The notes below the pieces were generated by a model. That model was not told the DNA's origin. It searched no databases and was given only the letters and a program-made list of their open reading frames with translations. A program made the translations under genes and the position numbers. From positions 372,001 to 436,000 of the forward strand of contig NW_027331842.1 in assembly GCF_033568475.1 (NCBI RefSeq): a stretch of 64,000 nucleotides of DNA, in the 5' to 3' direction. Numbering within the stretch: the first letter of the stretch is position 1; each line of letters begins with the position of its first letter. Origin of the DNA: Henckelia pumila. Lineage: Eukaryota; Streptophyta; Magnoliopsida; Lamiales; Gesneriaceae. This document shows positions 3,356 through 61,786 of the stretch, piece after piece.

Positions 3356-5098
3356 ACTTGGATTAGTGAATAATACTTATATGTTTACGCAGGAGAATAT
3401 CCATTGTGTGTTTAGGACTTGGACTTAGTAAGGCCTGTGTAAGTGGGGAGACGCCTACTCTTGGATTTGGTTGATTGTCTTTACTACTTCAGTAGTAAGT
3501 TTGTCACTTTATCCGTTGTTGCCATCTTTCTTACGAGCTTTAACTTTGGACCATGCTCAATCATCTTTTTAGCTCATGGATCAATATCTGTAGCTGATTT
3601 ACTATTAGAACTTCTCATAGATCTTGCTAAAAATCTATGTTTGTTTTTGTCATCGAGGTGTTTACGTGCATCTGCCCCTTTCTTGTGGTTTCGACCTTCA
3701 CTGCACTGCTGTGGGATCTTCAATTCAAAATATTGTTTATCCCAGCTTGCTACTTTCTAGATGCTTCTTTTGATTGCATGTCTGCGGCTGTGATGATTCT
3801 CTCCTCAAATAATTATCGTATTTGATTAGATTTAAGGATGAAGAACGGCTTCACACGCATCTCGAAGGTAATTAATTTATTAAATGAAAGTTGTGTTCGA
3901 CTTTCTGCATTAGCTATTCCTTGGCTTTTCCTATTTAAGCGGGGGGCTGTGGCTTTCCAGCGCGAATATCTACTTTAAAGGGTTTGTCTTTTGAATTTGT
4001 GCCACAAACTTTGGACCTCATCAATTGCAGTCAGTTGCTAAGAAGTGACAATAATCTGACCGTTCTTCTTTTACCCTTGGAAATTTTCTATCGAAACAAT
4101 GAAGTTGGGTCTGAAGTTCGCATCAATTTGGATATCACTTTTTCCCGAGTTAATATGAAAAAGCTATCCATTCTAGCATTCCCATCGGTCCTGCCTTGTC
4201 TTGAAGTCTGGCTGCGTAGGTGAGAATGACACTATAGATCCTTCATGCCCGTCGAAAGTGGGCACGGAAGCTGAGCAGGAAGTCTTATCTACTATGCATT
4301 TTGTTTATTGGTTACATTCCTTCTTTGTTTTCCCTTTAATTTCTGCTGATAATGTGGTTTGTTGGTATAAAGTGCTGGACGAAGCATTGAATGGAGAATT
4401 GTACGCATTATATATACTAACAACGCATGTGCACAAAATATATTTTTATAAATTTGAATTTATTTATAATTTTTTTCTTTCTTTAGGGTAATGGGATAGT
4501 GTTAATTAAATTTGGTTCAAGAAAATGTGGAAAAAATTAGTGGGAAAAGTTTAGTTGAAGTAAAGGTGGACATGTACGGTGAAAAAGTCTACATAACCAA
4601 AGTGATAAAGTTTGGTGGTAACGAAAAAATGGTAGAATTGGAAGGTAATTTTTGGTGTTTCTGTCATTTCACAGTTATTATAAGTCACTCAACTTTTATA
4701 ATATAAAATATATAATATATACTAGCCACATGACACATCAAAAAACAGTTGTCGCTGAATTTTGATAAAACAAAATATATAATATAAACTAGCTACTAAT
4801 GTACACGCAACTGCGGCGGGTGGACTGAAATGCATGTCTTAAACACACTAATTTTTACAATCAATCTTGGTGTATTGGGATAAAAATGAAAGCAAAACTC
4901 CACTAACTGTTAAATGAATGAGGTTTTATGTGAATTAGAATGGAGTAGTGGAGTGGGTAAAAGAGGATTGCTTGGGGAAATAAGTAATACAATGATTGGG
5001 GTTTATTTTGAAGATTGTGGAACAACCAAGTGCTCTGTGAATACAGTTCACCAATCAAATCGAAGCTCCGATTGCTAGTAAAAATAAAAGAGGAATAC
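3356..5098. other. RSZ22 3' flank and intergenic DNA
   Basis: The first 300-500 bases are probably RSZ22 3'UTR. The rest is T-rich, with short open frames but no recognisable domain or splice structure. One frame (4512-4706) looks loosely like a metal-binding fold but lacks the CxxC motif, so it is not called. Confidence 0.5.
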
Positions 5099-5206
5099 CT
5101 TCATTAAATTTGAAGGAGAAAAAGTTAAATAACCTCCATGACCATTGAGTACGAAGTCTCTGCCTCTGAGAATGATTTCTTCTAGAGTTTTGTCAGTTTT
5201 CTCCAT
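5099..5206 (-). other. Orphan exon-like open stretch
   Basis: On the minus strand an ATG at 5206 opens 36 codons beginning MEKTDKTLEEIILRGRDF. They end exactly at a good donor (AAG|GTATTC at 5098-5097). Composition is amino-acid-like rather than AT noise, and the stretch is well above the AT level of its surroundings. No convincing second exon was found downstream, and the family is not recognised. It may be the first exon of a small unrecognised gene or a stranded gene fragment. Confidence 0.25.
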
Positions 5207-5574
5207 AGATTTACTTACACGCTAAATTAAATTCGTTGAAGCCAAATAAAAGCATAAAGAGGTTTTCAACCGAACAATTTAGGAGAAGTTAAAAAAATAG
5301 AAAAAGGGAAGTTATTTTATTAACACGTTTATATCCAGTCAAAAACAATTTATTGTCATATCAAATGTACGAAGAGTTCATTCTTAATAAAATAGAATAT
5401 ATATATATATATATAAAAGACTTTTCAGTTGACCAACAATATTTTTTCACCTCGTTTTCGACCACTAAAATTCGGTACCGAGTTTTAGTTGTTTTTTTTT
5501 TCGCATAATTAAAACACGGTATCGGGTTTTAGTGGTCGGAGACGAGTTGGGTATCATTGGTTGGACAACTGAAA

Positions 5575-5604
<30 letters not shown>

Positions 5605-5605
<1 letters not shown>

Positions 5606-5776
5606 GAGTTTTACTATGATGCTCACCTATCATGCCCACCACCATGCCCACCAACGATGTGACACTATTTTATTGGATGTGATAAAAATATGATAAATTG
5701 TAGGTCCAATAGAATAGCGTCACATCGTTGGTGGACATAATTGGTGAGCATGATAGATGAGCAGCATAGTAAAACT
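5605..5776. mobile_element. Palindromic MITE, subfamily I, in a (TA)n tract (copy 1)
   Basis: Nearly the whole 172-bp element is an inverted repeat. The left end AGAGTTTTACTATGATGCTC pairs with the right end (complement AGAGTTTTACTATGCTGCTC), with arms of about 73 bp around a short AT loop. GCCCACC-like motifs repeat inside each arm. Both ends lie directly against TATATA DNA, so a TA target duplication is likely but cannot be delimited. Other copies: 21822-21982 and 24623-24782. No reading frame is present. Confidence 0.8.
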
Positions 5777-5781
5777 CTATA

Positions 5782-6611
5782 TGTGACGCCCGGGGCTGAG
5801 GAGGCAGGGAGTGATCGTCGGTGCCAAGAGGTTGCACGGACAATGAGCGGCTCCTGGTATGCTTCTAGGCGGAGGGAGACATGAATGAACCGATCCCGTG
5901 CCGGAATGAGAGGGGATTCTGAGACTGTGTAGGTATGAGACTACATAGTTGAAGAGGGCTTAAAAGATTTCATATATACTGCTCATATCAAGAAGGTGCA
6001 TCTTCTTTTCGTGAGCTCATCATATAAGAACTCCAAAGTTAAGCGTGCTTGACTTGGGACAATTTTAGGATGGGTGACCTTCTGGAAAGTTTCTCAGGGT
6101 GCGTGTGAGTGAGAACATAAGCACGCTGAAAAGACCCGTCTTGATATAGTGGGTCGTTACAAATGGTATCAAAGCCGACCTCTCTTAGTACGGTATGGTT
6201 CGGGAACGAACCAAGCGGAAGCTGGTGGGCATGTGACGCCCGGGGCTGAGGAGGCAGGGAGTGATCGCCGGTGCCAAGAGGTTGCACGGACAATGAGCGG
6301 CTCCTGGTAGGCTTCTAGGCGGAGGGAGACATGAATGAACCGATCCCGTGCCGGAATGAGAGGGGATTCTGAGACTGTGTAGGTATGGGACTACATAGTT
6401 GAGGAGGGCTTAAAAGATTTCATATGTACTGCTCATATTAAGAAGGTGCATCTTTTTTTCGTGAGCTCATCATATAAGAACTCCAAAGTTAAGCGTGCTT
6501 GACTTGGGGCAATTTTAGGATGGGTGACCTTCTGGGAAGTTTCTCAGGGTGCGTGTGAGTGGGGATATAAGCACGCTGAAAAGACCCATCTTGATATAGT
6601 GGGTCGTTACA
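5782..6611 (+). mobile_element. Cassandra-type TRIM (LTR element in miniature with 5S rRNA-like promoter)
   Basis: A fossil-class non-autonomous LTR element that looks structurally whole. The two LTRs are 5782-6161 and 6232-6611, 380 bp each, starting TGTGACGCCC and ending TCGTTACA, with a 70-bp interior. The interior opens with a primer site TGGTATCAAAGCC (6164-6176, initiator tRNA-Met type) and ends with a purine-rich tract before the second LTR. Each LTR holds a 5S rRNA-like region with A box (about 6034-6049) and C box (6067-6079), the hallmark of Cassandra. A perfect 5-bp target duplication CTATA lies at 5777-5781 and 6612-6616. The LTRs differ at about 13 of 380 positions, mostly transitions, which points to insertion in the last few million years. 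It encodes no protein. Confidence 0.93.
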
Positions 6612-7665: not shown

Positions 7666-10280
7666 TCATTTTTTATGCATTTCCAAGTCTGCCGTCAACT
7701 TAGGCAACTTGTTTCTCTTCTTCTGCTGATATTTTGAATAAGAATACCAAACACCACCGGCGGTGTTGATCACAAGCCCGGTGACATTTAAAGCATGTAC
7801 TTGTACTCCGCCTAGCAAGACAAAGCCGAGCGTCTGACCAAAACCAAAACGAAAACGAAAACGAAAACGAAAGTAACTTCATAAATCGGATTGAATGGAT
7901 ACAAGGAAAAAAGAGACCATTAATCGTCGCCAACTTACTGTCGAGCCAACACCTTTGAGGACGCCAACAATGGTAGTCGTTAAAGCAGAGTTGACAATGG
8001 TACACAAGAACATGGTGTAATTCAGAACTATTCCCATCACCAGGGAAAGAAGAAGAATGACAAAAAATGCGAGTGAAGTGCTCTGTATTCACGGCAAAAA
8101 TTATGTCTCCTCGTTAAATAATTTTGGTATTAGAAAACAACAGGAAAGTATCACTCCATCTGCAGTCGAGTATAAAAAATAGACTCAAGTGGAAGAAGAT
8201 GTCCTACACAAGATGCTAGCAAAAACACGTCCACAGTGTAAACAATATTTTAAGTGAGGGTCAACGATTCAAGAATCTCCACGTGTTTAACATAGAATAT
8301 GAACAACTGGGAGTCTGGGATGAATGAAACCGAAGGAAGAAACTGACATGACAAATTTATTTATTTCCAAACTAAGAACCCACTCAGGACCTGCTAAAGA
8401 AAACTTTATTCACTCCCAATCCCGTCATTTTTCTCCGTTTAAGTTTCATTGTCGTCGATACAATATCAAGCTATTCCATTACATTCACTTGTGGATCTCC
8501 ATATGTTGGATTAAATACCAAGAGAACTAATCTCAATAACAAGATTTTAGAGCTTCAAGATTTTACAGCTTCAAGAACATGTTCGACGTGATACAATGCA
8601 GCCGAATGATGACCAAAAAACCAGACGTGCGAGAGAGGTGATATTAAAGTTTTGATGACACCAAGTTAATTTATATTGATATTTCGTGATTGTCTGTAAT
8701 TTATTTGAAACAAATTACATCTGCCTTATCACTAAAATTCTCTTGTTTTTAAAGTATTTAGCATTATTGTCTGTAGCCTTTATGCATCAGAAACCACAAA
8801 AGATTTCTAAAGATGAATCTATAAATGTATGAATATGAATCGAGATCCTGACCTTGGAAAAAAGTATGGACATGGAATTCGGAAATTCTCCGGTAGTTAC
8901 GATGAGGAATAGCAGAAAAGGTAACGATAAAACGCTGTTATAAAACATGATTTCAACTGAAGAAAGCCCATCCTCTGCACCTGATCTCTCCACTAATACA
9001 AGGTACATGGTCTGTATATATGTATGGCAAAAAAAATACGTGTTATGCAAGTAACTAGAAATATGATCAAACACTGAGAAAGATACAACGGCAATGCCTA
9101 CAAAATCTAAATGAACAAAGCCAGTTAATTCTACGCTAATCTTTGGGATTTAGAAGGGCGAAAAGCACCTGAAAAAAAACGGAAGTAAGTGCCATTGAAT
9201 ATCCGAAAAGATCAAAAGAAAAATCACCAAGTGCTGCTATAAGAACTCCAGCAGCAGTTAGAAGAACAGACAGAGTAACCTGAAATTTATTGGGAACAAA
9301 CAGTGTATTAGAGAAACTTCTTGAAAACTCAGATGCGAGATTTTATCTATGCTGAAAAAAGTATGAAATTAAAACATTAGTAATAAGAAAGGTAAAGACG
9401 ACATTTTCATATCTGACCATCACTTTTGTGCAAATACTAAAGGCGGACTCCAAAAATTATTTTCTTCCTCTGAACTGAAGTCCTATGTAGGAATCTACAA
9501 GCTTACACAAATGCCATTTTATCGGTACACATGAATTTGAAATTTAACAGAGATGCAATCGACATATGCCCTATGTAATGAGACTACAAGCTTACACAAA
9601 GGCCGTTTATTCGTACAAACAATTTGAAATTCAACAGAGCAGTAATCAACAGAACATGTGGAGCCAACGTCCAGCAATCATCACCGCACAAATAACACCA
9701 TATTTGATGATTGAATAATATGATCATAAAAGGCATTAAATTGGTTCTTTTTATCTTTTTTTTAAAAGGCATAAAACAGCATATTGCAAAGGCTCTGACA
9801 ACAAAACTTCAACAGTATATTAAACCTGAGTTGAAGGTCTCCCCTTTCCTGTAAAGAATCCAGCTACAAGTACAGCAAGTGGTGTTAATCTTTTGATGGC
9901 AATGTACATTGGAATATTTACTCCTTTCAAGCTTGCTAAAGCGAAGGCCACATTAGCATTGTAGAACAAGGAAACTGGAACAAGTTTTTTTGCCGTTTCT
10001 ACATTCAATTCTTTGGCATTTGTATATCCCATAACTCTACTAATCCGTATGAGCAAAGCTGTCATCAATTGCTACAGCACCTCAAATCAATATAAAGAAA
10101 TGCTGAGTAAAGAACCACAAAAGAAAACAAGGTTAGAAGTAAAAATTGCATTCGCGTACACGATTTATGTGTACCTGGAGTGTAAGAAGAGTCATTGAAT
10201 GTGCATACTGCATAAGCACTGCTTTATTGATGAAAACCATAGCCATGGAGGCAATTCCATATGACACGGCAGCAAACAAA
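7666..10280 (-). CDS. UTR7: UDP-sugar transporter, NST/TPT (drug/metabolite) family, UTR7-like; first exon not resolved
   Basis: Multi-pass Golgi/ER-type carrier expected to exchange cytosolic UDP-sugars for UMP. Six coding exons read from high to low: 10175-10280, 9826-10071, 9169-9279, 8853-9011, 7939-8082, 7666-7833, all GT-AG with consistent phase and about 310 residues. Diagnostic stretches: YGIASMAMVFINKAVLMQY, SLFYNANVAFALASLKGVN, LVERSGAEDGLSSVEIMFYN and LCTIVNSALTTTIVGVLKG, ending in a lysine-rich cytosolic tail (KYQQKKRNK...MHKK). These match Arabidopsis UTR7 (At4g31600, about 323 residues) as I remember it. The first exon, about 10-20 residues ending in phase 2, must lie between 10290 and about 11550 but could not be identified. 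The UDP-Gal/UDP-Glc specificity is carried over from the family name and is not visible here. Confidence 0.85.
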
Positions 10281-48400: not shown

Positions 48401-49442
48401 CCTTCGAGTTTTCGAAGAATGGATCAAATATGTATATCCTGCATTTTTATGCTCTGGAGATTATTTTACAATGGGTGCATAACTGGCTGTGAGTACATTT
48501 TGTTTCTTGGCTCCTTTATTTTATCAACTTGCTGCCAGTTTATTCTGTATTTATTTTCCTGGTATATTCAATGCACGCACATCGATAAATTGGTAAGAGT
48601 TTTGTTTTCCTGGTAAATTTAGTCATGAATATTTACATTTAATTTATTTGAATCTCTAGATTCAAATTTGTTCTGTAAACTGTTATAATTGATAAGATGG
48701 TGACAAAAAATTAATGGAATCAGATTTATTTATTTTTTTTAGAAAAAAGAAATCAGAAACTTTTTATGAAATAAAAAATAATTTAAAAATGTGCTATACT
48801 TTGTGCACTACCATGCTAAATGTAACATACGATAGTACTTATAATTGTTTTCATCGAAAAACAAATTTAAAAATTTATGTAACTCTTAAATTAAAAAAAA
48901 AACGAAAATTTCAAATTATTATTGGCACAAAATGTGTCATCAAATTATCTACATAATATTCAGTCCAACTATAACAGTATAAGATTTGATTTAATCAGAT
49001 ATTTTACATATGCTGATTACGTCAAAGGTAAAATTCCACTCCTCTGACTCAAGAAAATTGAAGAATTTGAAATAGATCATCGGAAGATTAATATATTTAT
49101 ATTTAAAATCGATTTCATTACATCTGGTATACACTAATGACAACAAAATGTTGACCAATTTTCAACAGATTTCAAAATTCGAAGGAAAATTATGGCGAAA
49201 TTAAAACTTTTGGTCATTAAGATCACAAGGCCAGGATATGAATTTAATTAGAACAATCCAAATAATAATTCTTTCTTGCCATAATATGACACACACAATT
49301 TTTGACCCAAAAAAACAAAACTGCATGTATATATATATATATATATACTCCTTAATTCAATCCACACACACACACAAAAATAAAAAATAAAAAAAAAAAA
49401 AAATCGTCTGCATACATATATATTTTCTTGTTTATAATTAAC
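48401..49442. other. Intergenic and promoter DNA of the MADS gene
   Basis: AT-rich. A (TA)n tract at about 49327-49347 and a CA-repeat then A-run (49361-49402) lie just before the MADS start. No other gene. Confidence 0.4.
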
Positions 49443-50441
49443 ATGGAGGCCGAAGGAAGAAGACAAACCAGAGGGCGCCAAAAGATCCCCATGCAACTGA
49501 TCGAGAACCAAGATGATCTTTACGCAACATTTTCGAAACGGCGACTTGGAATCTACAAAAAAGCCACGGAATTATGCACTCTGTGCGATGTGGATATCGG
49601 AATCATCCTGTTTTCTCCGACGGACGTGCCTTATTCCTTCTTCCATCCGAGGATGGAAAGTGTGGTTTCCAGGTCGATGAACCCAGATGAGATTCAACAA
49701 GAATTTGACATTGTAGTTGATTCTCACACTCAAACGAGGATACAGGGGATGAATGTGGAGCTGGACAGGATCATAGCTTCCAGAGAAGCTGAAAGAGTTC
49801 GGTGGCAGCGAGCTATGGAGGAGGTGAAAACTCGGAGTATATGGATGCGCCAGAAGTTGGATACCATCACCAGAGAACAAGCTCTGGTTTGGAGGGCTTG
49901 GTTCAGGGAGTACAAGGTTCGTGTCACTCGGAGGATCGAGCAGATCAAGAATCAGGCTTCGGGTTCGGCCATGCCTCCGCTGCCGCCGCCGCTGGCTGGA
50001 GATAATGTACTGGAGGACATGGTGATTGGGGAAGAATTAGCGGAAATGGCGCCGCCGCCGCCGCCGGGTCAGTTCTATTATCCTGGACAAACGTCCAAAG
50101 AGCCCAACTTCGACGGCGGCGGAGCTCCTTCTGCTCAGTACTATTATCCTACGGAGGGGCAGAATGTGTTCGCCGCCGGCGGCAGCGGCGGCGGAGTGGG
50201 TCCTTCTCAGGAGCTGAACTTGGGTCCACCGGGTTATGACCCGTATTACGTGCTGCCGGCCCCGCCGCCGGACTTCTCGGCGGCAGGCGGAGATGATGTT
50301 GATCCTGGCCAGTTTTATGTTCCTTTTCAGCCGCGTGCCGGTGGAGCTGATGAAGCCGGGCAGTTTTACTTCCCTCCGCCGCCGTATGGCGGTGGGTCGT
50401 ATCAAGATGAAGCTGGGCCTTCCCATCAGAAGGATGATTAG
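49443..50441 (+). CDS. Type I (M-alpha) MADS-box transcription factor, intronless
   Basis: 332 residues in one exon, as is usual for type I MADS genes, which mostly act in female gametophyte, endosperm and seed. The MADS domain is about residues 10-68: RGRQKIPMQLIENQDDLYAT, FSKRRLGIYKKATELCTLCD, then VDIGIILFSPTDVPYSFFHP. It is followed by a charged, helical segment up to about 175 (arginine/glutamate-rich, with WRAWFREYKVRVTRR). The second half is proline/glycine-rich low complexity, with repeated GQFYYP, AQYYYP, GQFYVP and GQFYFP motifs. There is no K domain, which excludes MIKC type. The third base is strongly GC-rich against AT-rich surroundings. An in-frame ATG at 49428 would add five residues; 49443 is preferred because it precedes the conserved basic start. 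Closest known group is AGL62/AGL28-like. Confidence 0.9.
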   Translation: MEAEGRRQTRGRQKIPMQLIENQDDLYATFSKRRLGIYKKATELCTLCDVDIGIILFSPTDVPYSFFHPRMESVVSRSMNPDEIQQEFDIVVDSHTQTRIQGMNVELDRIIASREAERVRWQRAMEEVKTRSIWMRQKLDTITREQALVWRAWFREYKVRVTRRIEQIKNQASGSAMPPLPPPLAGDNVLEDMVIGEELAEMAPPPPPGQFYYPGQTSKEPNFDGGGAPSAQYYYPTEGQNVFAAGGSGGGVGPSQELNLGPPGYDPYYVLPAPPPDFSAAGGDDVDPGQFYVPFQPRAGGADEAGQFYFPPPPYGGGSYQDEAGPSHQKDD

Positions 50442-51429
50442 TTTGCCTAATTTTATTTTATTTTATTTTATTTTCTTGTTTTGTTTTATTATTGCAAAAA
50501 CTTTATGTTTGTTTCTTTATCTAGAATTGTGAATTTGAATGAACATGGTTTATTAATTTGAAGTGTTACTTGTTAGTTTCTGCTCTCCAGTATTTGATTA
50601 CCTATAACTTAGAAAAATCAATTAGCTAGATTTCATGAATTTTGTTGAGCGGCCGATACAATCACGAAAAATTTATAACTATAATATTAATATGTAGGTC
50701 ATATATGGATTTATACAAAAAGTATGAGTAAATACTAAATAAATGTTCGAAAATGGTGTTTGGAATTCGAGTATGCTTTTATCAAGTGTATATTATGTGG
50801 TAATTAACTATGAGAGTGTTTGGTTAAATACAAATAAATTTCTTAGTCTTATATATTTTTTTTGGTAATTTTAAAAATAAAAATATCTTATAATCTCAAA
50901 CACATCAACATATTTAATTTGTTTAAAATAAATTTATCTAAACAATTTAACAACTTAATTTTAAATTAAATTCTTATAACTTATAAAAACCTAAACTAAC
51001 TTATAAGTTCCTAGATCTTATAAGGCGTTTCCAATAAAGTTGTCAAACATATCTTCTAGACAATTAATTAAAATCTACATGTTTCTAAACTTGAGATGTA
51101 TCGATATATTTATTTGAAGTCATATAAAACTCAACAATTAAAAACTTGAAAACAATCTGCTACAGTATCTTTGTTTTTTCCTCTCTCCCAGAGAAAAGAA
51201 TGCATGATATATTTATGTTATATCACTCTCATTAGCTTTGACGATCTATATAATTTTGAATGGGGAGTGGTATGATTATTTAAACTTGTAAAGATTTGGT
51301 GGAAAAAAAATCAAAATTAAATTTTGTGAAAGATAAAATCATATTTGAAGAGAGAAGGTAAACCAACTCTTTGATTTTTTCGACAGTCAACTTTTTGTAA
51401 TTTATTGAGAGACAAAAATGTCTTTAGTT
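50442..51429. other. Intergenic AT-rich DNA
   Basis: Short MADS 3'UTR with TTTTATTTTA repeats, then nothing recognised. Confidence 0.5.
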
Positions 51430-52086: not shown

Positions 52087-55000
52087 TCACTCATCTCTTG
52101 GAGCAGAATCTAACCCAACAGATGGATTGTCTGCAAAGTATTCTTGATGTTTGACGTTAACACCATACTGCAAAAATTAACACAAAAACAGTCCAACCAA
52201 TATAAGTGATGGTGAAACACGTTCATCCATTCAAGATTAATACAACAAAAAGGATGAAGGATAAACATTTACAAATATGAACACGTTTAATACCGTGCCA
52301 GGAACACATATGAACGTTAATGAAATTATAGTGGTTACCTCCCGCAAAGCCTTGGAAATATCCTCCATGTTCAAGATGAGACGCTTATCCTGTTTCCAAC
52401 CAAGTGTTAAAAATTGTAGATAACCATAGGAAGTGATGATACCAAGCACAATATGCATACCTTCTGCTGCTTATCTCTTTTGTCTTTAACTATAGATGAC
52501 TGTCTGGCCTTGCAATGCCTGAAGATAAATATTATTACCATAGCATTATTACTGGGGAGAATGAAACAGAAAACGAAATTTCAACCGAAAAGAGATAGAT
52601 GAACAATGACATCAAGCTACATAAAATGAAGAACATACTGAAGAGCATCAGTAGCAACGTCTGCGATGAATTTCTGAGTGGCAACTGCTACTAGCCTCGT
52701 CCTGAGGGAAAAAAAGGAAGCTGTGAGAAACAAATCCCGTGCATACAGATGAACAGAGAAAAAGTGAGACAAAAAAAAAAACAGGGAAAAATGGGACAGA
52801 AACAAGATAAAGACTAATTGGAACCAAGTCGTAGAGTTAATGGGTGGCATTGGATTAACACTTCGTAACACCTACAAAAACACCGATGTGATAAATTCAA
52901 ACTCCTACGGTAGTTTACAAAAACTCATTAACGGTACAACTAAGTAAATTTGTAAAGAACAAGTATGATTTTCTCAAGGCAGGCACTATAGGTGTTGGCC
53001 ATTACTTTCTTGAATCATGTCATAATTTTTTCAATATACTTTTTTCAACTTTGCAGAATATTAAAGACTGAAACATACATAAAACATATATATTACATTT
53101 TCTAGGACACAGTATTTCGTATAACTCTTAAGATTTTCTTCGTTGCCTTCAGAATTTGCAATTTAATCAATTATTAGTAGGATAAAACATCATCACTTTC
53201 TAAACAATAATGGAAATAATATCAATTTTTATGAGCAAGTAATAAAACGAGAAAAAAAAAAGCATCTGATAACTTGTTTCCATTCTAATTTCTAATCCAT
53301 GCACCTCATGGTACTAGACAACAAACTTACCAGCGTGACTCAGCTAATAGAAAAGCAACGAGAACAATGTAGCTTCACTGGATAATACAGCTAAATTCAG
53401 CTATTGCCACAGTTGATGGTATCAAGAAATTAAGACAAAAGGTATAATGTCTTTCTAGCACAAGGGACACAATCAAAATAAGGGATCTAGTTCTATCCCA
53501 AGACCCAAGGTAACATTGCTCCAAACATGTATGCTTCAGAAAAATATTAATATGCCGTTTAAATGAATATGACTTGGAACTCGTGCATATACTGTCATGA
53601 TTTCACTCGATGGTGCGGGAACTCCACTTTGAATAGGTCAGCCCTGAAGCTAGACATTGCTCCAAACATGTATGCTTCAGAAAATATTAATATGCCATTT
53701 AAATGAATATGACATGGAACTCGTGTATATGTTGTCATGATTTCACTGGATGGTGCAGGAACTCCATTTTGAATAGGTCAGCCTTGAAGCTAGACATCGT
53801 CGGATGGCACATTGACTGACACGTGGAAAAGGAATCCAATTTTTTTAAAATATCAAATTTCAATGGGAAGTGCTAACCATGGTTTACTCCTAAATCTGAA
53901 AAATTTAAAAAACCTAAAACTTCTTCCCGCGTCGTTCACCATCAGCATTCACTCTCCTCGATTTTGAACTGGACAGTTCAATGCCACTTTGGGCATTGCA
54001 ATGTTCTCGATGCCCTGTGTTTAGATGTTGTGCTAGTTCATTATAGAATGAGGAAAGGCATGGGTTTTGTAATTTATGATGCTTGTGAATAGGATAAAAG
54101 ATTTGAAGTACTGAAAGAATAGAAGCAATAGAGGTATCACAAAATGATCTTTCGATAACTAAATAATCCGGGATCCTACTTTATATATATGGAACTAAGT
54201 TTTAATTTTATTTCCTACCATATCTCAACTAACAACTCCAAACATTTGATAGGGATGGGAATTTTCAGGTTCTGAGGAGGCGGAACAGGAGAATTTTGCT
54301 TTTACTGAAGCAAATTGGACCAGGGGGTTAAGGTCGAGAATGGGGAAAATGGTTGTTGCATTGCTAGTAGAAGGGATTGGGGCAGCTGGTGCAGCCAGAG
54401 GAGCTTAAGGCTCAAAGCGGGATACAATATGAAGAAGATTTACCCGAATTTTATCTAAGCTAGCCTAGTCAGTACCCCTCCCAATTGAAACAATATTGTA
54501 GGCCCGTAACACATGATGGGTTATCTTTTGTTGGGCATCTTGTCTTTCTTTCTAACAAATAGACTTTGTTCAGAATCTTCATTTATCAATTTTTGGGTTG
54601 ATGAGCTTGTACAGATTCGATCATTCGAGCTATGAGAATATCGATCTGTTCAACTAACAATCAAATTAATTTGCATGATGTTCTCAACGTTAGTGGAGTT
54701 TGAATTTGCATGATGTTCTCAACGTTAGTGGAGTCATGCAATTTTTATTTTTTTAATTTCCAAATGTTTTTGTGGTCATTCAAAATGACAGTGAAGAAAT
54801 TATTTGTTTCATTTAGTTGCAATTCTAGTTTGAAAATGGTAGATGACAACTCATTGTCACTTGAAGATTTGGAGGGAGGCTACGATGAAGAAGTCGAAAT
54901 TGGTCATATTCCAAATATGCAATGTGAAGTTCCTGATTTTTCTGTGCAAGAGAATGTTGAGGTACAGAATGAAAATTCTATTACTGATGTTTTAGAAAGT

Positions 55001-58000
55001 AAACTAGAAGTGGTTACGATTGTGAACACTGTGGAATATGCTTATTTGTTGTATTGTCAATACACATGCCAAGAGATTTAGTGTGACAAAAGGTAATCAA
55101 AGATGTTTTTTCCAATAAAAATGAGTTTCAATCAAAGGAATTTAATTGTTCATGTGAAGGTTGGAAAAATGAAAAAAGATCTAGTAAAGATATTGAAGCT
55201 TATCAGAAACCGATCACTAGAACTAATTACAAGGCCAAATTGAAAATTACAAGGGAAAAATGGGTTAATAGAGGTTGAGTAGATTTGTGGAGGACCATAA
55301 TCATGAGATGTTTGCACCTAATCAAGATCACTTGTTAAGATCAGATATATATCACATGCAAAATAGTCTACTTTAGAAGCCATGGCAAATGTTGGAATTT
55401 CTGTCTCTAATACTGTTTCTTTTATGGAAAATGAAGCATGTGGTCCTGAAAACTTAGGTTTTATTAGAAAGGATGCATATGATCAAATGAGTCGGTTGAA
55501 AAAACACCCCAAAGTTGAGAATGGAGATGTCACAACACTTATTCAATATTTTACAAAGAATACGAACAAAGAAAATTATTTTTATTGGAATATGCAATTG
55601 GATGATGATGATATAGTGATCAACTTTTTCTTCAGGGATTATAGATGTGCTATTGATTATGAATGTTTTGGTGATATCTTGTCGATTGATACAAACGTAC
55701 CGACCAAATAAGTATAATTTGATATGTGCTCCTTTTGTTGGTATCAATCACCACATGAAGAATGTGATGTTTTGTGTTGGCATTTTTGTCATATGAAACC
55801 GAAAATTCTTTTGAATGATTGTTTATCACATTTCTTTATTCTATGAATGGAAAACAACCTCAAACTATATTTTCAGATCAATGTCAAGCCATGATAAATG
55901 TCATTGAAACAGTTTTTCCTCGATCACATCATCGTTTATGTACATATAAATCAAAATACTCCTCACTTTGGGAGTTTAAATGACAATTCGGCATTTAAAA
56001 ACTTATGGTATAAGTATATGACTTATTGTGATTCTGAGGCCAAATGGAGAAATATGATTGGTACATATAATTTGGATTATCGTAAATGGTTGAATGACAT
56101 GTATAAACTTAGGAGAAAATGGGTCACTGATTTTAGTAATGAAAAGTTTAGTGCTGGGCTTTTAGCTACTTCAAGGAGTGAGACCACAAATAAAATAAAT
56201 GGCGGGAGAAAGAGAAAGCCGAGGATACCCGATGTCGTCATGGTAATCCTGGACAGATCCATTGTTAATTCATGTTGTTGTGTATACGATTTTCATATAT
56301 CAGTTATTTGAAATGGAATTGGTTGATTCCTTGAATTGCAAATTTGTTAACCACCATCTTGTCATGGTAATGATTGGAATTGGATTGAGGTGACAGTAAA
56401 ATCTCATGATGAACACTCTAGGATGCGGTGTGTGTTGTTCAATAAGCAGACTAAAGAAATAAAGTGCGCAAATGGTGTTTAACTCTATGGATGTAACTGC
56501 TTTGCCCAACTGTTATATTTTGAAAAGATAGGATGAAGAATGTAAGAAATAGAGTGCGGGTGGTCACGTGTTTCAAATGGTGTTTGTCAACCAAATAATA
56601 AGATCAATTTATGTTTGTCTTAAATGGTGTTTGTACAAAGGTGTTTCAACCATTGTTCGACGCCGTTTATTCTAATTAACTATAAATATTATATCCACAA
56701 ACCAACAATGGTTAGATACCAACGTTTACAATCACTTAACGTTTTTGAAATACTAAATACGCTAAACTGGTCTAGCATTACATTACATTTTCTAACACAG
56801 ATTAACCACGACCACTCAATCTCATCTCTTGAATCTTTTGTTTCATCGCATCTATTTTCTCCATAATCTGCAACACATCATTTTGTAAATTAGACAGTGC
56901 ATCTTCCAATTCAACTATTTTGTCAGTTTGACGAGAATTTCTTTGCGAGCTTGAAGTTGCACATGAACTTTCCTCGCCATTTGACTTGAATGAAGTAGTT
57001 GGACCTCTCTTTTCCACATATTCCTCAAACACTCTTATTGCTTCTGCCCTACTCGAGAACTTCTTGTATAAAGCACCTTGTATTCGTTAATTTCAGCATC
57101 CACCCAAGACTCCTAAACACTAGAATTTTTTTCTTCGAATACAACGTACGTTTTCCCCTAAAAAAAATTCACGATTCTATAAAAAATAATCACATTATGA
57201 TAGAGCGTTTGATGGTGAGTCACGGACAGTTAATTGATTTATTTTATGATAATGTGATTATTTTTTATGGAATCATGAATTTTTTTGGGCGAAAATGTAC
57301 GTTGTATTCGAAGGAAAAAATCCTAATGTTTACAAGTTTTGAGTGGAAACACATGCTGAAGTCAACGAATACAAATGTGTTTTATACCAGAAGTTCTCGA
57401 GTAGGGCAGAAGAAATAAGAGCGTTTGAATAATATGTGAAAAGCGACGTTCAACTACTTCATTCAAAGTAAATGGCGAGGAAAGTTCATTTGCAACTTCT
57501 AGCTCAAGCTCGCAAAGAAATTCTCGTCAAGCTGACAAAATAGTTGAATTGGAAGATGCACTGCCTAATTTACAAAATGATGTGTTGCAGATTATGAAGA
57601 AAATGGATGCGATGAAACAAAAGATTCAAGAGATGAGATTGAGTGGCCGTGTTAAGTCTGTGTTAGAAAATGTAATGCTAGACCAGTTTAGCGTATTTAG
57701 TATTTCAAAAACGTTAAGTAATTGTAAACGTTGGTATCTCATAATTGTTTGTTTGTGGATATAATATTGTTAGTTAATTAGAATAAAATACATAAACAAT
57801 AGTTGAAACACCTCTTGTACAAACACCATAAATTGATCATATTATTTGGTTGACAAACACCATTTGAGACACGTGACCACCAGTATTCTCTCTATTTCTC
57901 ACATTCTTCGTCCATCTTTTCAAAATATAACAGTTGGGCAAAGTAATTACATCCATAGAGTATTAAAGTTAAACACCATCAAAACATGCTTACACAGAAT

Positions 58001-61000
58001 TTCCATTGTCTCAAACTTATTCTTTACTATCACCTCAATCTAATTCCAATCATTACCATAACAAGATGGTGGTTCAACAAATTTGCAATTCAAGGAATCA
58101 ACCAATTCCATTTCAAATAACTGATATATGAAAATCGTACACACATCAGCAGTATGAATCAATAATGGATGATTTTTCAAAATCTCTCCAGACTTAACAT
58201 GACGACATCGGGCATCCTCGACCTTCTCTTTCTCCCGCCATTTATTTTGAATTTTTGCATAATTCATCACAAATTCATACAAAGAAATCATTTTGTTACC
58301 CGTTTTTTTCAAAGCTCTATTTGCGGCCTCACTCCTCGAAGTAGCTAAAAGCCCAGCACTAAATTTTTCATTACTAAAATCAGTGACCCATTTTTTCCTA
58401 AGTTTATACATCTCATTCAACCATTTACGATAATCCAAATTATATGTACCAATCATATTTCTCCATGTGATCTCAATTTCATCCTCATATTCACAATAAG
58501 TCATGCACTTATACCACAAGTTTTTAAATGTTGAATTGTCATTTAAACTCCCAAAGTGGGAAATAGTATTTTGATTTATATGTCATTGACATAAACGATG
58601 ATGTGATTGATGAAGAATTGTTTCAATGACATTCATCGTGGCTTGACATTGATCTGAAAATATAGTTTGAGGTTGTTTTTCATTCATAGAATCAAGAAAT
58701 GTGATAAGCAATCATTCAAAAGAACTTTCGGTTTCATCTGACAAAAATGTCAAGCCAAACATCACATTCTTTCATGTGGTGATTGATACCAACAAAAGGA
58801 GCACATATCAAATTATACTTATTTGGTCAGTACGTTGTATCAATCGACAAGATATCACCAAAACATTCTTAATCAATAGCACATCTATAATCCCTGAAGA
58901 TAAAGTTATCACTTTATCATCATCATACATTTGCATATTCCAATAAAAATAATTTTCCTTGGTCGTCTTATACGTAAAATATTAAATAAATGTTGAGGCA
59001 TCTCTATTCTCAACTTTGCTTTGTTTTTTCAACCGACTCATTTGATCATATGCTTCATTTATAATAAAACCTAAGTTTTCAGGACCACATTCTTCATTTT
59101 CCATAAAAGAAACAACGCTAGAGACACAAATTCCAGCATTCACCATGACTTCTAAAGTAGACTTTTTTGCATGTGATATATTTCGTGCTGATCTTAACAA
59201 GTGAGCTTGATCAGATGCAAACATCTCATGATTATGCCCCTCCACAAATCTACTCACTCTCCATTCACCCCTTTTTTCCTTGTCATTTTCAATTTGATCT
59301 TACAATTACTTTTAGTGAACGGTTTCTAATAAACTGCAATCTTTTTACTAGATCTTTTTTCATCTTTCAAACCTTCACATTAACAATTAAATTCCTTTAA
59401 TTGAAGCTCATTTGTATTCGTTGATCACCCTTACTCACACTAAATCCCTTGGCATGTGCGTATTGACTATACAACAAATAAGCATCTTCCATCGGTAATA
59501 GAGTTTTCAATTTGTACCTAACATTCTCTTGCACAGAAAAATCAGGAACTTCACATTGCATATTCACCAATTTCGACTTCTTCACCGTAGTCTCCCTCCA
59601 AATCTTCAAGTGACAATGTTGTCATCTTCCATTTTCAAACAAGAATTGGAGCTGAATTGAAACAAATAATTTTTCCACGGTCATTTTGGATGACCACAAA
59701 AACATTTGAAAATTAAAAAAAATAAAAATTGCATGACTACAAAAACGTTGAGAACATCATGCAAATTCAAATTCTACTAACGTTGAGTACATCATGCAAA
59801 TTAATTTGATTGTTAGATGAAAAGATCGATATTCTCATAGCTCGAATGATCGATTCTTTACAAGCTCATCAACCCAAGAATTGATAAATGAAGATTCTGA
59901 ACAAAGGTTATTCTTTAGAAAGAAAGACAAGAGGCCCAAATATTGTTTCAATTGGTGGGGATATTGACTAGGCTAGCTTAGATAAAATCCGGGTAAATCT
60001 TCTTTATATTGTATCCCGCTTTGAGCCTTAAGCTCCTCTGGGCTGCACCGCAGCACCAGCTGTCCCAATCCCTTCTCCTAGCAATGCAACAACCATTTTC
60101 CCCATTCTCGCCCCTAACATCCCCTCCTGGTCCAATTAACTTCAGCAAAAGCAACAATCTCTAGTTCCGCCTCCTCGGAACCTGAAAATTTCCATCGCTA
60201 TCAAATGTTTGGAGTTGTTAGTTGAGATATGATATGAAATAAAATTAAAACCTAGTTCCATATAAGTAGGATCCTGGATTATTTAGTTGTCGAAAGAGCA
60301 TTTTGTGACACCGCTATTGTTTCTAATCTTTCAGTACTTCAAATCTTTATCCTGCTCACAAGCATCATAAATATAAAACCCATGTCTTTCCTCATTCCAT
60401 AACGAACTAGCACAACATCAGAACACAGTGCATCGAGAACATTGCAAAGCCCAAAGTGGCATTGAACAGTTCAAAATCGAGGATGTCATCCTCACTTCGT
60501 TGATTACACGCATGTAGATGTTAAAGGTAATTGTACAAAATAGAGCCATCAACATACCAGATGTTATTTCATATGTCAAGCGCAGCCATTTGCTCGTAGC
60601 AAGTACTAGAGCTGGAGATGTTAACACTCTGAGACCAGATTGAGAACAAGATATTGTAGCCGCATGTGACTTCTGGTCATTCTCGATGATAAAATTATAC
60701 TCCGATTGCGGACTGGTGAGTGGAGCGACGGCGAGGAGAAGCGGCTCGATTACACTTTGTGTCGGAGTGAAGGCCGGGAAGATGGCGGGCCCGTCAGTGA
60801 CGGCCGAAAAGATGAAGGGCCGGTGAGTGGCGTTGATGGAGAGGAGAAGCGACGCGAGATAAGAGGAATCTTTGGCGGTGGCAGAGAGTGAATGTTGATG
60901 GTGAACGACGCGGGAATTGAATTTTTCAGATTTAGGAGTCAACCATGATTAGCACATCCCATTGAAATTTGATATTTAAAAAAAAAATAGATTCTTTTTT

Positions 61001-61786
61001 TCACGTTTCAGTCAATGTGTCGTTCAAGGCCGACACCATCGACTTAGCCCTACTTTTCCTCAACCATGGTTGAGTTTGAGAGAGAGGGGAGTTGAGGAAA
61101 TGTGAATATCCGAGATAATAAATCAAAGCACATCACATTATTTTTTGTCATTTAAAAAAATTGGGAACACGTGTCAGTCAATGTGCCGTTCAAGTCAATG
61201 CCTTGAACGACAATTTTTCGTTAACGAAAAAGCTGAGAAGTTGTTCGCTCTCCCAAACACCACCTTAGCCTACATTGTCCGATCAAATGCAAGAATACCA
61301 CCAAATCAAGATAATATAGTTAATGTGCTCTCACATCAAAAGACACCTAATGGAAAGTCATGTACAATTCATATCCCCAAAGCATTCAACGGTGATCTAC
61401 ATTTCTAAATCAAGATAAGCTAAAAAGAGTCAATTTATCTAGGTTGAATTTTCCTATGCAAGAATATTAAAGCTGAATTACATAAAACTGTAAATGGTTA
61501 ACAACAACCAGAGCAAGAAAGGGGAAGAGTACCTACAATCTGACATCGGGACACTGGAAGCCGCTTTTTGCCAGGTAATGCTCCACCAATTCATCAGGTA
61601 TCTGTATATTAATATAAAATTGTAATCAACTAAACAAAAAATGGAAGCATCGTCATAGAGTTAACTAGATGTGAAGGCTATCACCGTGGGGGTGTAGTCC
61701 ATTAAAGAGGCGAGGAAATCGGTGAGCGGAGCATCATCGTCATGGCGGCCGTCATTCGGTTGCTGCTGGCTACTTTGGCCATTCAT
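52087..61786 (-). CDS. TAF10: Transcription initiation factor TFIID subunit 10 (TAF10) with an 8.8-kb intron
   Basis: Histone-fold subunit of TFIID and SAGA in the nucleus. Exons high to low: 61685-61786, 61537-61601, 52639-52701, 52461-52518, 52339-52389, 52087-52167, all GT-AG and in phase, giving 139 residues (Arabidopsis 134). The protein starts MNGQSSQQQPNDGRHDDDAP. It contains DFLASLMDYTPTIPDELVEH, YLAKSGFQCPDVRLTRLVAV and ATQKFIADVATDALQHCKAR, the TAF10 histone fold. A basic linker (KDKRDKQQKDKRL) follows, then NMEDISKALREYGVNVKH, ending SAPRDE. Intron 2 (52702-61536, 8835 bases) holds the inverted transposase arms described separately. The other introns are short. The reading frame is intact across the junctions, so the gene looks functional provided the long intron is spliced. 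Confidence 0.95.
53515..53795 (+). repeat. Tandem duplication of 141 bp in TAF10 intron 2
   Basis: Units 53515-53655 and 53656-53795 begin ATTGCTCCAAACATGTATGC and end CCTTGAAGCTAGAC or CCCTGAAGCTAGAC, with few differences. The second unit abuts the left edge of the inverted transposon region at about 53800. Confidence 0.9.
54838..56340 (+). pseudogene. FAR1-related (MULE-type) transposase relic, left arm
   Basis: Broken frames in order read MVDDNSLSLEDLEGGYDEEV, MQCEVPDFSVQENV, SRFVEDHNHEMFAP, FMENEACGPENLGFIRKDAY, the long piece YFYWNMQLDDDDIVINFFFR with DILSIDTNVPTK, QTIFSDQCQAMINVIETVFP, and DYRKWLNDMYKLRRKWVTDF. These follow the order of FRS/MULE proteins: FAR1-like zinc domain, then MULE transposase core. 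Several frameshifts and stops separate the pieces, and no SWIM finger was found, so the gene is dead. It lies on the strand opposite to TAF10. Confidence 0.8.
56802..57032 (-). pseudogene. Unidentified coiled-coil frame, left arm
   Basis: 76 codons with KIVELEDALSNLQNDVLQIM and DAMKQKIQEMRLSGRG, a short heptad-like coil, pointing away from the centre and opposite to the FRS relic of the same arm. The mirrored copy is at 57440-57660 on the + strand. It may be a second protein of the transposon or a captured gene end; the family is not recognised. Confidence 0.45.
57440..57660 (+). pseudogene. Unidentified coiled-coil frame, right arm
   Basis: Mirror of 56802-57032. It contains LEDALPNLQNDVLQIMKKM-like residues and KQKIQEMRLSGR, but the upstream part is shifted or stopped, so it is more decayed than its partner. 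Confidence 0.45.
58040..59640 (-). pseudogene. FAR1-related (MULE-type) transposase relic, right arm
   Basis: Minus-strand pieces, mirror of 54838-56340: MQCEVPDFSVQENV, GFSVSKGDQRI, MSRFVEGHNHEMFASDQAHL, SFMENEECGPENLGFIINEA, and a long open block 58519-58040 with MIGTYNLDYRKWLNEMYKLR, GLLATSRSEAANRALKKTGN and LNCKFVEPPSC. This arm keeps part of the transposase (NRALKKTGN...) that is deleted in the left arm. It has frameshifts and stops and no complete frame. Confidence 0.8.
60418..60942 (-). other. Open frame of 174 codons in the right arm only
   Basis: Minus-strand frame starting MTPKSEKFNSRVVHHQHSLS, rich in Ser, Ala, Pro and Leu in its first two thirds. Most of it (about 60480-60910) is missing from the left arm, where the flanks CATTCACTCTC and CTCGATTTTGAACT are joined. 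It could be transposon leader DNA lost from the left arm, or a captured host fragment. No family recognised, and coding is unproven. Confidence 0.35.
61056..61536. other. Right flank of the transposon region in TAF10 intron 2
   Basis: Holds a perfect 16-bp palindrome CTCAACCATGGTTGAG (about 61059-61074). It also holds a second copy of the arm-end sequence ACGTGTCAGTCAATGTGCCG (about 61168-61187), followed by a MITE-like arm (TTCGTTAACGAAAAAGCTGA to CTCCCAAACACCACC). Further transposon debris seems to have gathered here. Confidence 0.5.

Follow-up and report, generated by a model that had tools for sequence, protein, structure and literature searches.

A probable inverted duplication of a FAR1-type Mutator-like element, with the layout of Mu killer, in an intron of TAF10 in Henckelia pumila

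TAF10 and the inverted repeat in its second intron

The stretch of Henckelia pumila DNA analysed here, called the window, comprises 64,000 nucleotides (contig NW_027331842.1, positions 372,001 to 436,000) and lies on a contig of 631 kb (C88) of the 885 Mb genome that was searched. It holds the gene TAF10, and within intron 2 of this gene lies a giant inverted repeat of 7.3 kb (53787-61050) centred at about 57.2 kb and built of two remnants of a Mutator-like element (MULE). TAF10 is encoded on the minus strand by six exons placed by exon joining, namely exon 1 from the ATG (61685-61786, also placed by the Pfam match of the joined product), exon 2 (61537-61601, with the donor GT beginning at 61536), exon 3 (52639-52701), exon 4 (52461-52518), exon 5 (52339-52389) and exon 6 including the stop codon (52087-52167). 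These join into an open frame of 139 codons with every intron GT..AG, and the product matched the Pfam family TAF10 (PF03540, 2e-40), bearing out the first-pass annotation both in its naming of a 139-codon TAF10 and in the limits and intact splice sites it gave to intron 2. This intron (52702-61536, minus strand, GT..AG) measures 8835 bp against about 1 kb in a paralogue on C1 and, judging from the sequence, appears to be spliced out and tolerated together with the palindrome that it holds.

From the outside to the centre each arm of the repeat begins with a MULE-like end, followed by a segment shared with a locus on C2, a remnant of the transposase gene tnpA reading inwards and a remnant of tnpB reading outwards. 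The left arm (53787-57202, plus strand), whose tnpA-side end is degraded, holds its tnpA remnant on the plus strand, as matches at 54767-56613 to a relative of the element (L019), and its tnpB remnant on the minus strand at 56721-57150, the right limit being set by eye. In the right arm (57211-61050, minus strand) the tnpB remnant lies on the plus strand from about 57297, also placed by eye, and the tnpA remnant on the minus strand, with matches to L019 at 59702-57827. The arms are joined by a filler of 8 nt (57203-57210). Alignment carries the arms out to 53808 and 61019; for the outer limits given here, 53787 and 61050, the ends of relatives served as a guide by eye.

The earlier proposal of a repeat in mirror order inside the intron held when arm was aligned with arm, as it had suggested, with local identities of 81-85% (53955-56192 against 60483-58318, 85.2% over 2281 columns; 56192-58248 against its own reverse, 81.5% over 2157 columns; 53808-53956 against 61019-60884, 81.5% over 151 columns). 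A piece of about 400 bp, at 60484-60883 in the right arm, is missing from the left arm. Substitutions between the arms amounted to 241 of 2810 sites (8.6%) with two badly aligned blocks excluded and to 349 of 3210 (10.9%) with these included. An artefact of chimeric reads is unlikely, as it would be expected to give near-identical arms rather than arms 8.6% apart.

The TAF10 with the palindrome is not the sole TAF10 but one of two known copies. The second, at C1:156967219-156969272, has an open frame with four amino-acid differences and could be aligned over all six exons, and no third copy was found among the genome matches to a query holding exons 1-2. The host gene that the first-pass annotation described as essential is therefore no lone essential copy, since an insert-free, open-frame paralogue stands on C1. 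As the two copies differ at 16 of 420 exon sites against 103 of 1351 intron sites, TAF10 looks conserved. What the C1 copy lacks is the stretch 53428-61281 of the window (7854 bp or 7.85 kb, edges ATCAAGA / ATCAAA), which somewhat exceeds the two arms, with outer stretches at 53428-53786 on the left and 61051-61281 on the right.

The element and its relatives

None of eight broken pieces of the window matched Pfam at 0.001, the best family match being that of 58985-59299 to FAR1 (0.0016, below the cut-off), and the family identity therefore rests on relatives. The transposase of L019 matched MULE (1.5e-30), FAR1 (8.8e-23) and SWIM (5.5e-06) in an open frame of 762 codons from stop to stop, or 746 from the first MEDDN, and the element has clear terminal inverted repeats and a 9-bp target-site duplication. 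It was through such relatives that the MULE/FAR1 identity given in the earlier annotation could be upheld. Over 6.7 kb L019 shares 99.2% identity with each of L020 and L021, no lesion was seen in the transposase gene of L020, and the three appear to represent a recently moving family. The copies in the window resemble FAR1-type MULEs through the domains and the target-site duplication of L019, and differ from them in being dead and doubled. On the strand opposite the transposase, the three 6.7-kb elements also have a frame for a GRF zinc finger (2.5e-08). For tnpB, the gene of the relative L039 matched Cauli_VI, the RNase H1 N-terminal domain, at 4.6e-11, and the window piece 56805-57086 gave a weak match to Cauli_VI at 0.03.

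The segment common to both arms and to C2:133474736-133475659 lies at 53955-54219 and 54231-54426 in the left arm and at 60708-60233 and 60219-60010 in the right arm. The C2 stretch holds a possible exon, and the segment is perhaps a captured gene piece. Captured gene pieces are a known phenomenon in Pack-MULEs, which the presence inside both arms of a segment shared with one C2 locus resembles.

Origin of the palindrome

Among natural inverted duplications that silence a family of transposons, Mu killer is the textbook case. We consider it likely, with a probability of about 0.8, that the palindrome in TAF10, which has this layout, stems from a single inverted duplication of a single FAR1-type MULE that was dead beforehand. 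In a tnpA tree of 19 rows, from which L022 was excluded for its poor alignment (distance 0.41), the arms formed a clade with support of 100/98.8, and among polarised sites 18 united the arms whereas only one and two united one or the other arm with L019. A change from tryptophan to stop is identical in both arms, while the other 18 rows comprise 15 with tryptophan, one with the stop (L027) and two that were unreadable. The distance between tnpA and tnpB is also shorter in the arms, by about 1.7 kb, than in three relatives (C1:75.96, C3:27.71 and C3:175.19 Mb). Differences between the arms were spread evenly over the codon positions (47/493, 50/501 and 35/496), whereas those between L019 and L024 showed the excess at third positions expected of working genes (79/667, 63/667 and 155/665), and because of this evenness the arms appear to have decayed free of protein-level constraint since the duplication.

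The possibility that two MULEs inserted independently side by side in opposite orientation draws on the multicopy nature of the family and on one of 18 fetched relatives, L033, in which a tail-to-tail tnpA neighbour 78% alike was found. It is very improbable and was rejected on the tree, the shared lesions and the join, as it would have to accommodate arms that are sisters with a common stop and a common C2 segment, a divergence even over codon positions, and inner ends that were both lost no more than about 40 bp apart. At the join the left arm ends at 57202, and the right arm follows the relatives for about 40 bp further. All ten aligned relatives (L039-L048) run through the centre, which is therefore not a place where two element ends meet.

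Both outer ends of the unit look like MULE ends and the unit is missing from the C1 paralogue, as would be expected of a mobile foldback-type MULE that had entered TAF10 already formed. Such a history is quite unlikely, given that among 26 matches to the centre from one search only the window's own two spanned both sides of the join, so that a second copy of it did not appear, and that no clean target-site duplication stood at the outer ends.

Under a single inverted duplication, the parent MULE would already have carried the stop codon in its transposase gene and the C2-shared segment. Breakage close to where tnpB starts would then most likely have been followed by fold-back or template switching, and the duplication would have left two tnpA-side ends on the outside and the join in the middle.

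Several observations weigh against this origin or leave parts of it loose. The stop shared by the arms also occurs in L027, so it can arise repeatedly, and the relatives used for the distance between tnpA and tnpB belong to another subfamily with 72-73% identity. A clean 9-bp target-site duplication was not found at the outer ends of the unit among several choices of ends made by eye, although L019 has one, which leaves the insertion step less firm. Similar pairs that were tried as target-site duplications, ACATCGTCGGAT / ACATTGTCCGAT and GACATCGTC / GACACCATC, misfit the ends of the relatives, and none is claimed. The left 359 bp of the missing stretch (53428-53786) found no other match in the genome search and are likewise missing from C1, so the difference between the two TAF10 copies may in part be a deletion in C1. 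The insertion may also predate the duplication of TAF10 and have been followed by loss from C1. The arms (241/2810 for all changes, 97/2810 for transversions) and the introns of the paralogues (103/1351 and 47/1351) have diverged equally (Fisher p 0.31 for all changes, 1.0 for transversions), and dating therefore gives no order of events.

In L033 (C4:13882400-13892399) the tnpA copies stand at 4352-6063 on the plus strand and 9703-10000 on the minus strand, the second being partial since it runs off the end of the locus, and the pair may represent a further case of inverted duplication within the family. The other 17 of the 18 fetched relatives had no inverted tnpA partner within 10 kb each. 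Inverted repeats were seen as well in L021, L025, L027, L030, L032, L034 and L036, in no case formed by a second copy of tnpA.

Likeness to Mu killer and possible silencing

Mu killer (Muk) of maize is an inverted-duplicated MuDR for which a hairpin RNA was proposed; its terminal inverted repeats both derive from the mudrA side of the element, and its two incomplete copies of mudrA, which in MuDR is convergent with mudrB, end in the inverted duplication (PMC3440606). The TAF10 locus similarly has outer arm parts that align to each other on the 5' side of tnpA, a pair of incomplete transposase copies that stand in inverted order and appear to come from one element, and an RNA predicted to fold into a long hairpin. 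Its inner arm ends lie near the start of tnpB and its left terminus is degraded. Both loci can be described as internally deleted MULEs at or in a gene, with transposase-side ends outside and partial transposases in inverted duplication. The TAF10 locus differs in being of FAR1 type rather than MuDR, in the tnpB remnant and C2-shared segment that its arms add, and in arms that are 8.6% diverged and placed inside an intron. A literature search for such loci, covering titles and the openings of abstracts with subscription papers mostly outside its reach, named no second Mu killer-like locus.

The long hairpin foreseen in the first-pass annotation was recovered as a prediction. For the unit on the TAF10-sense strand the predicted fold reached -4641 kcal/mol, with 3018 pairs bridging the centre and 48 helices of at least 21 pairs without interruption. 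One mononucleotide shuffle of its sequence gave -1628 kcal/mol and 222 pairs across, and a window stretch of lower GC content (0.28 vs 0.35) gave -1670 kcal/mol and 164 pairs across. Perfect matches of at least 21 bases between the arms numbered 35 stretches. Exact 21-mer matches to L019-L021 came to 180 from the left arm and 207 from the right arm, with none from a 7-kb control stretch.

These figures would suit a host-driven Mu killer, in which every transcription of TAF10 would yield a hairpin of sense transposase, loop and antisense transposase, Dicer-like enzymes would cut it, and the resulting small interfering RNAs (siRNAs) would silence the 6.7-kb relatives. Intact-looking relatives do exist in the genome, and an excess of C-to-T change outside CG sites in the arms could reflect RNA-directed methylation or plain mutation bias. 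This role bears on function only and is compatible with the origin by inverted duplication. We consider it unlikely, as the arms are 8.6% apart and their protein unconstrained, and as sense read-through RNA from the flanking gene of Mu killer was present in the two plants that failed to silence, whereas antisense RNA from inside the locus accompanied successful silencing (PMC3440606). If such a role were true, siRNAs from a TAF10 intron would restrain relatives that are still intact.

Another function, conceivable though on balance doubtful, is that of a heterochromatic island tolerated by TAF10 through an IBM2-type system. With the ancestor inferred by majority, C-to-T change was more frequent in the arms (53 of 845 sites) than in the L019 row (10 of 533), and in rice more than 10% of genes have intronic heterochromatin, mainly at transposable elements and repeats (PMC7145194). 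A long intron filled with transposable elements and an intact coding sequence are shared with the rice genes whose intronic heterochromatin is regulated by OsIBM2 (PMC7145194). The TAF10 intron differs from these heterochromatic introns in the lack of extra CG decay. By context the changes in the arms were 1/51 at CG, 5/70 at CHG and 47/724 at CHH sites, so that no extra decay at CG relative to CHH was found within these small counts (Fisher p 0.36), and in the L019 row they were 7/461 at CHH and 1/42 at CHG.

The locus is probably an old intronic duplication of the Mu killer kind that persists as a tolerated relic, and any small RNAs from it would be incidental. It presents the Mu killer layout aged to 8.6% drift inside the intron of a general transcription factor gene, in a genome where an insert-free paralogue and intact-looking targets occur together, and it bears on whether such loci persist as silencers or merely as relics.

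Around the unit, the left arm is bordered by a tandem duplication (53513-53657 and 53654-53797, 141-bp spacing, 93% alike) in the outer sequence for which the genome search gave no other match. On the other side of TAF10, a MADS-type open frame (SRF-TF, 4.2e-20) lies in a 2.57-kb stretch (48464-51032) that is missing beside the C1 paralogue, where 48463 joins 51033. In the right outer stretch lie a further copy of the MULE end, at 61168-61194, and, at 61211-61268, a short dispersed repeat found at 32 other places in the genome (36/42 matches, 77-85% identity). Three of these places are inverted pairs about 70-77 bp apart, which we take to resemble the ends of miniature inverted-repeat transposable elements.

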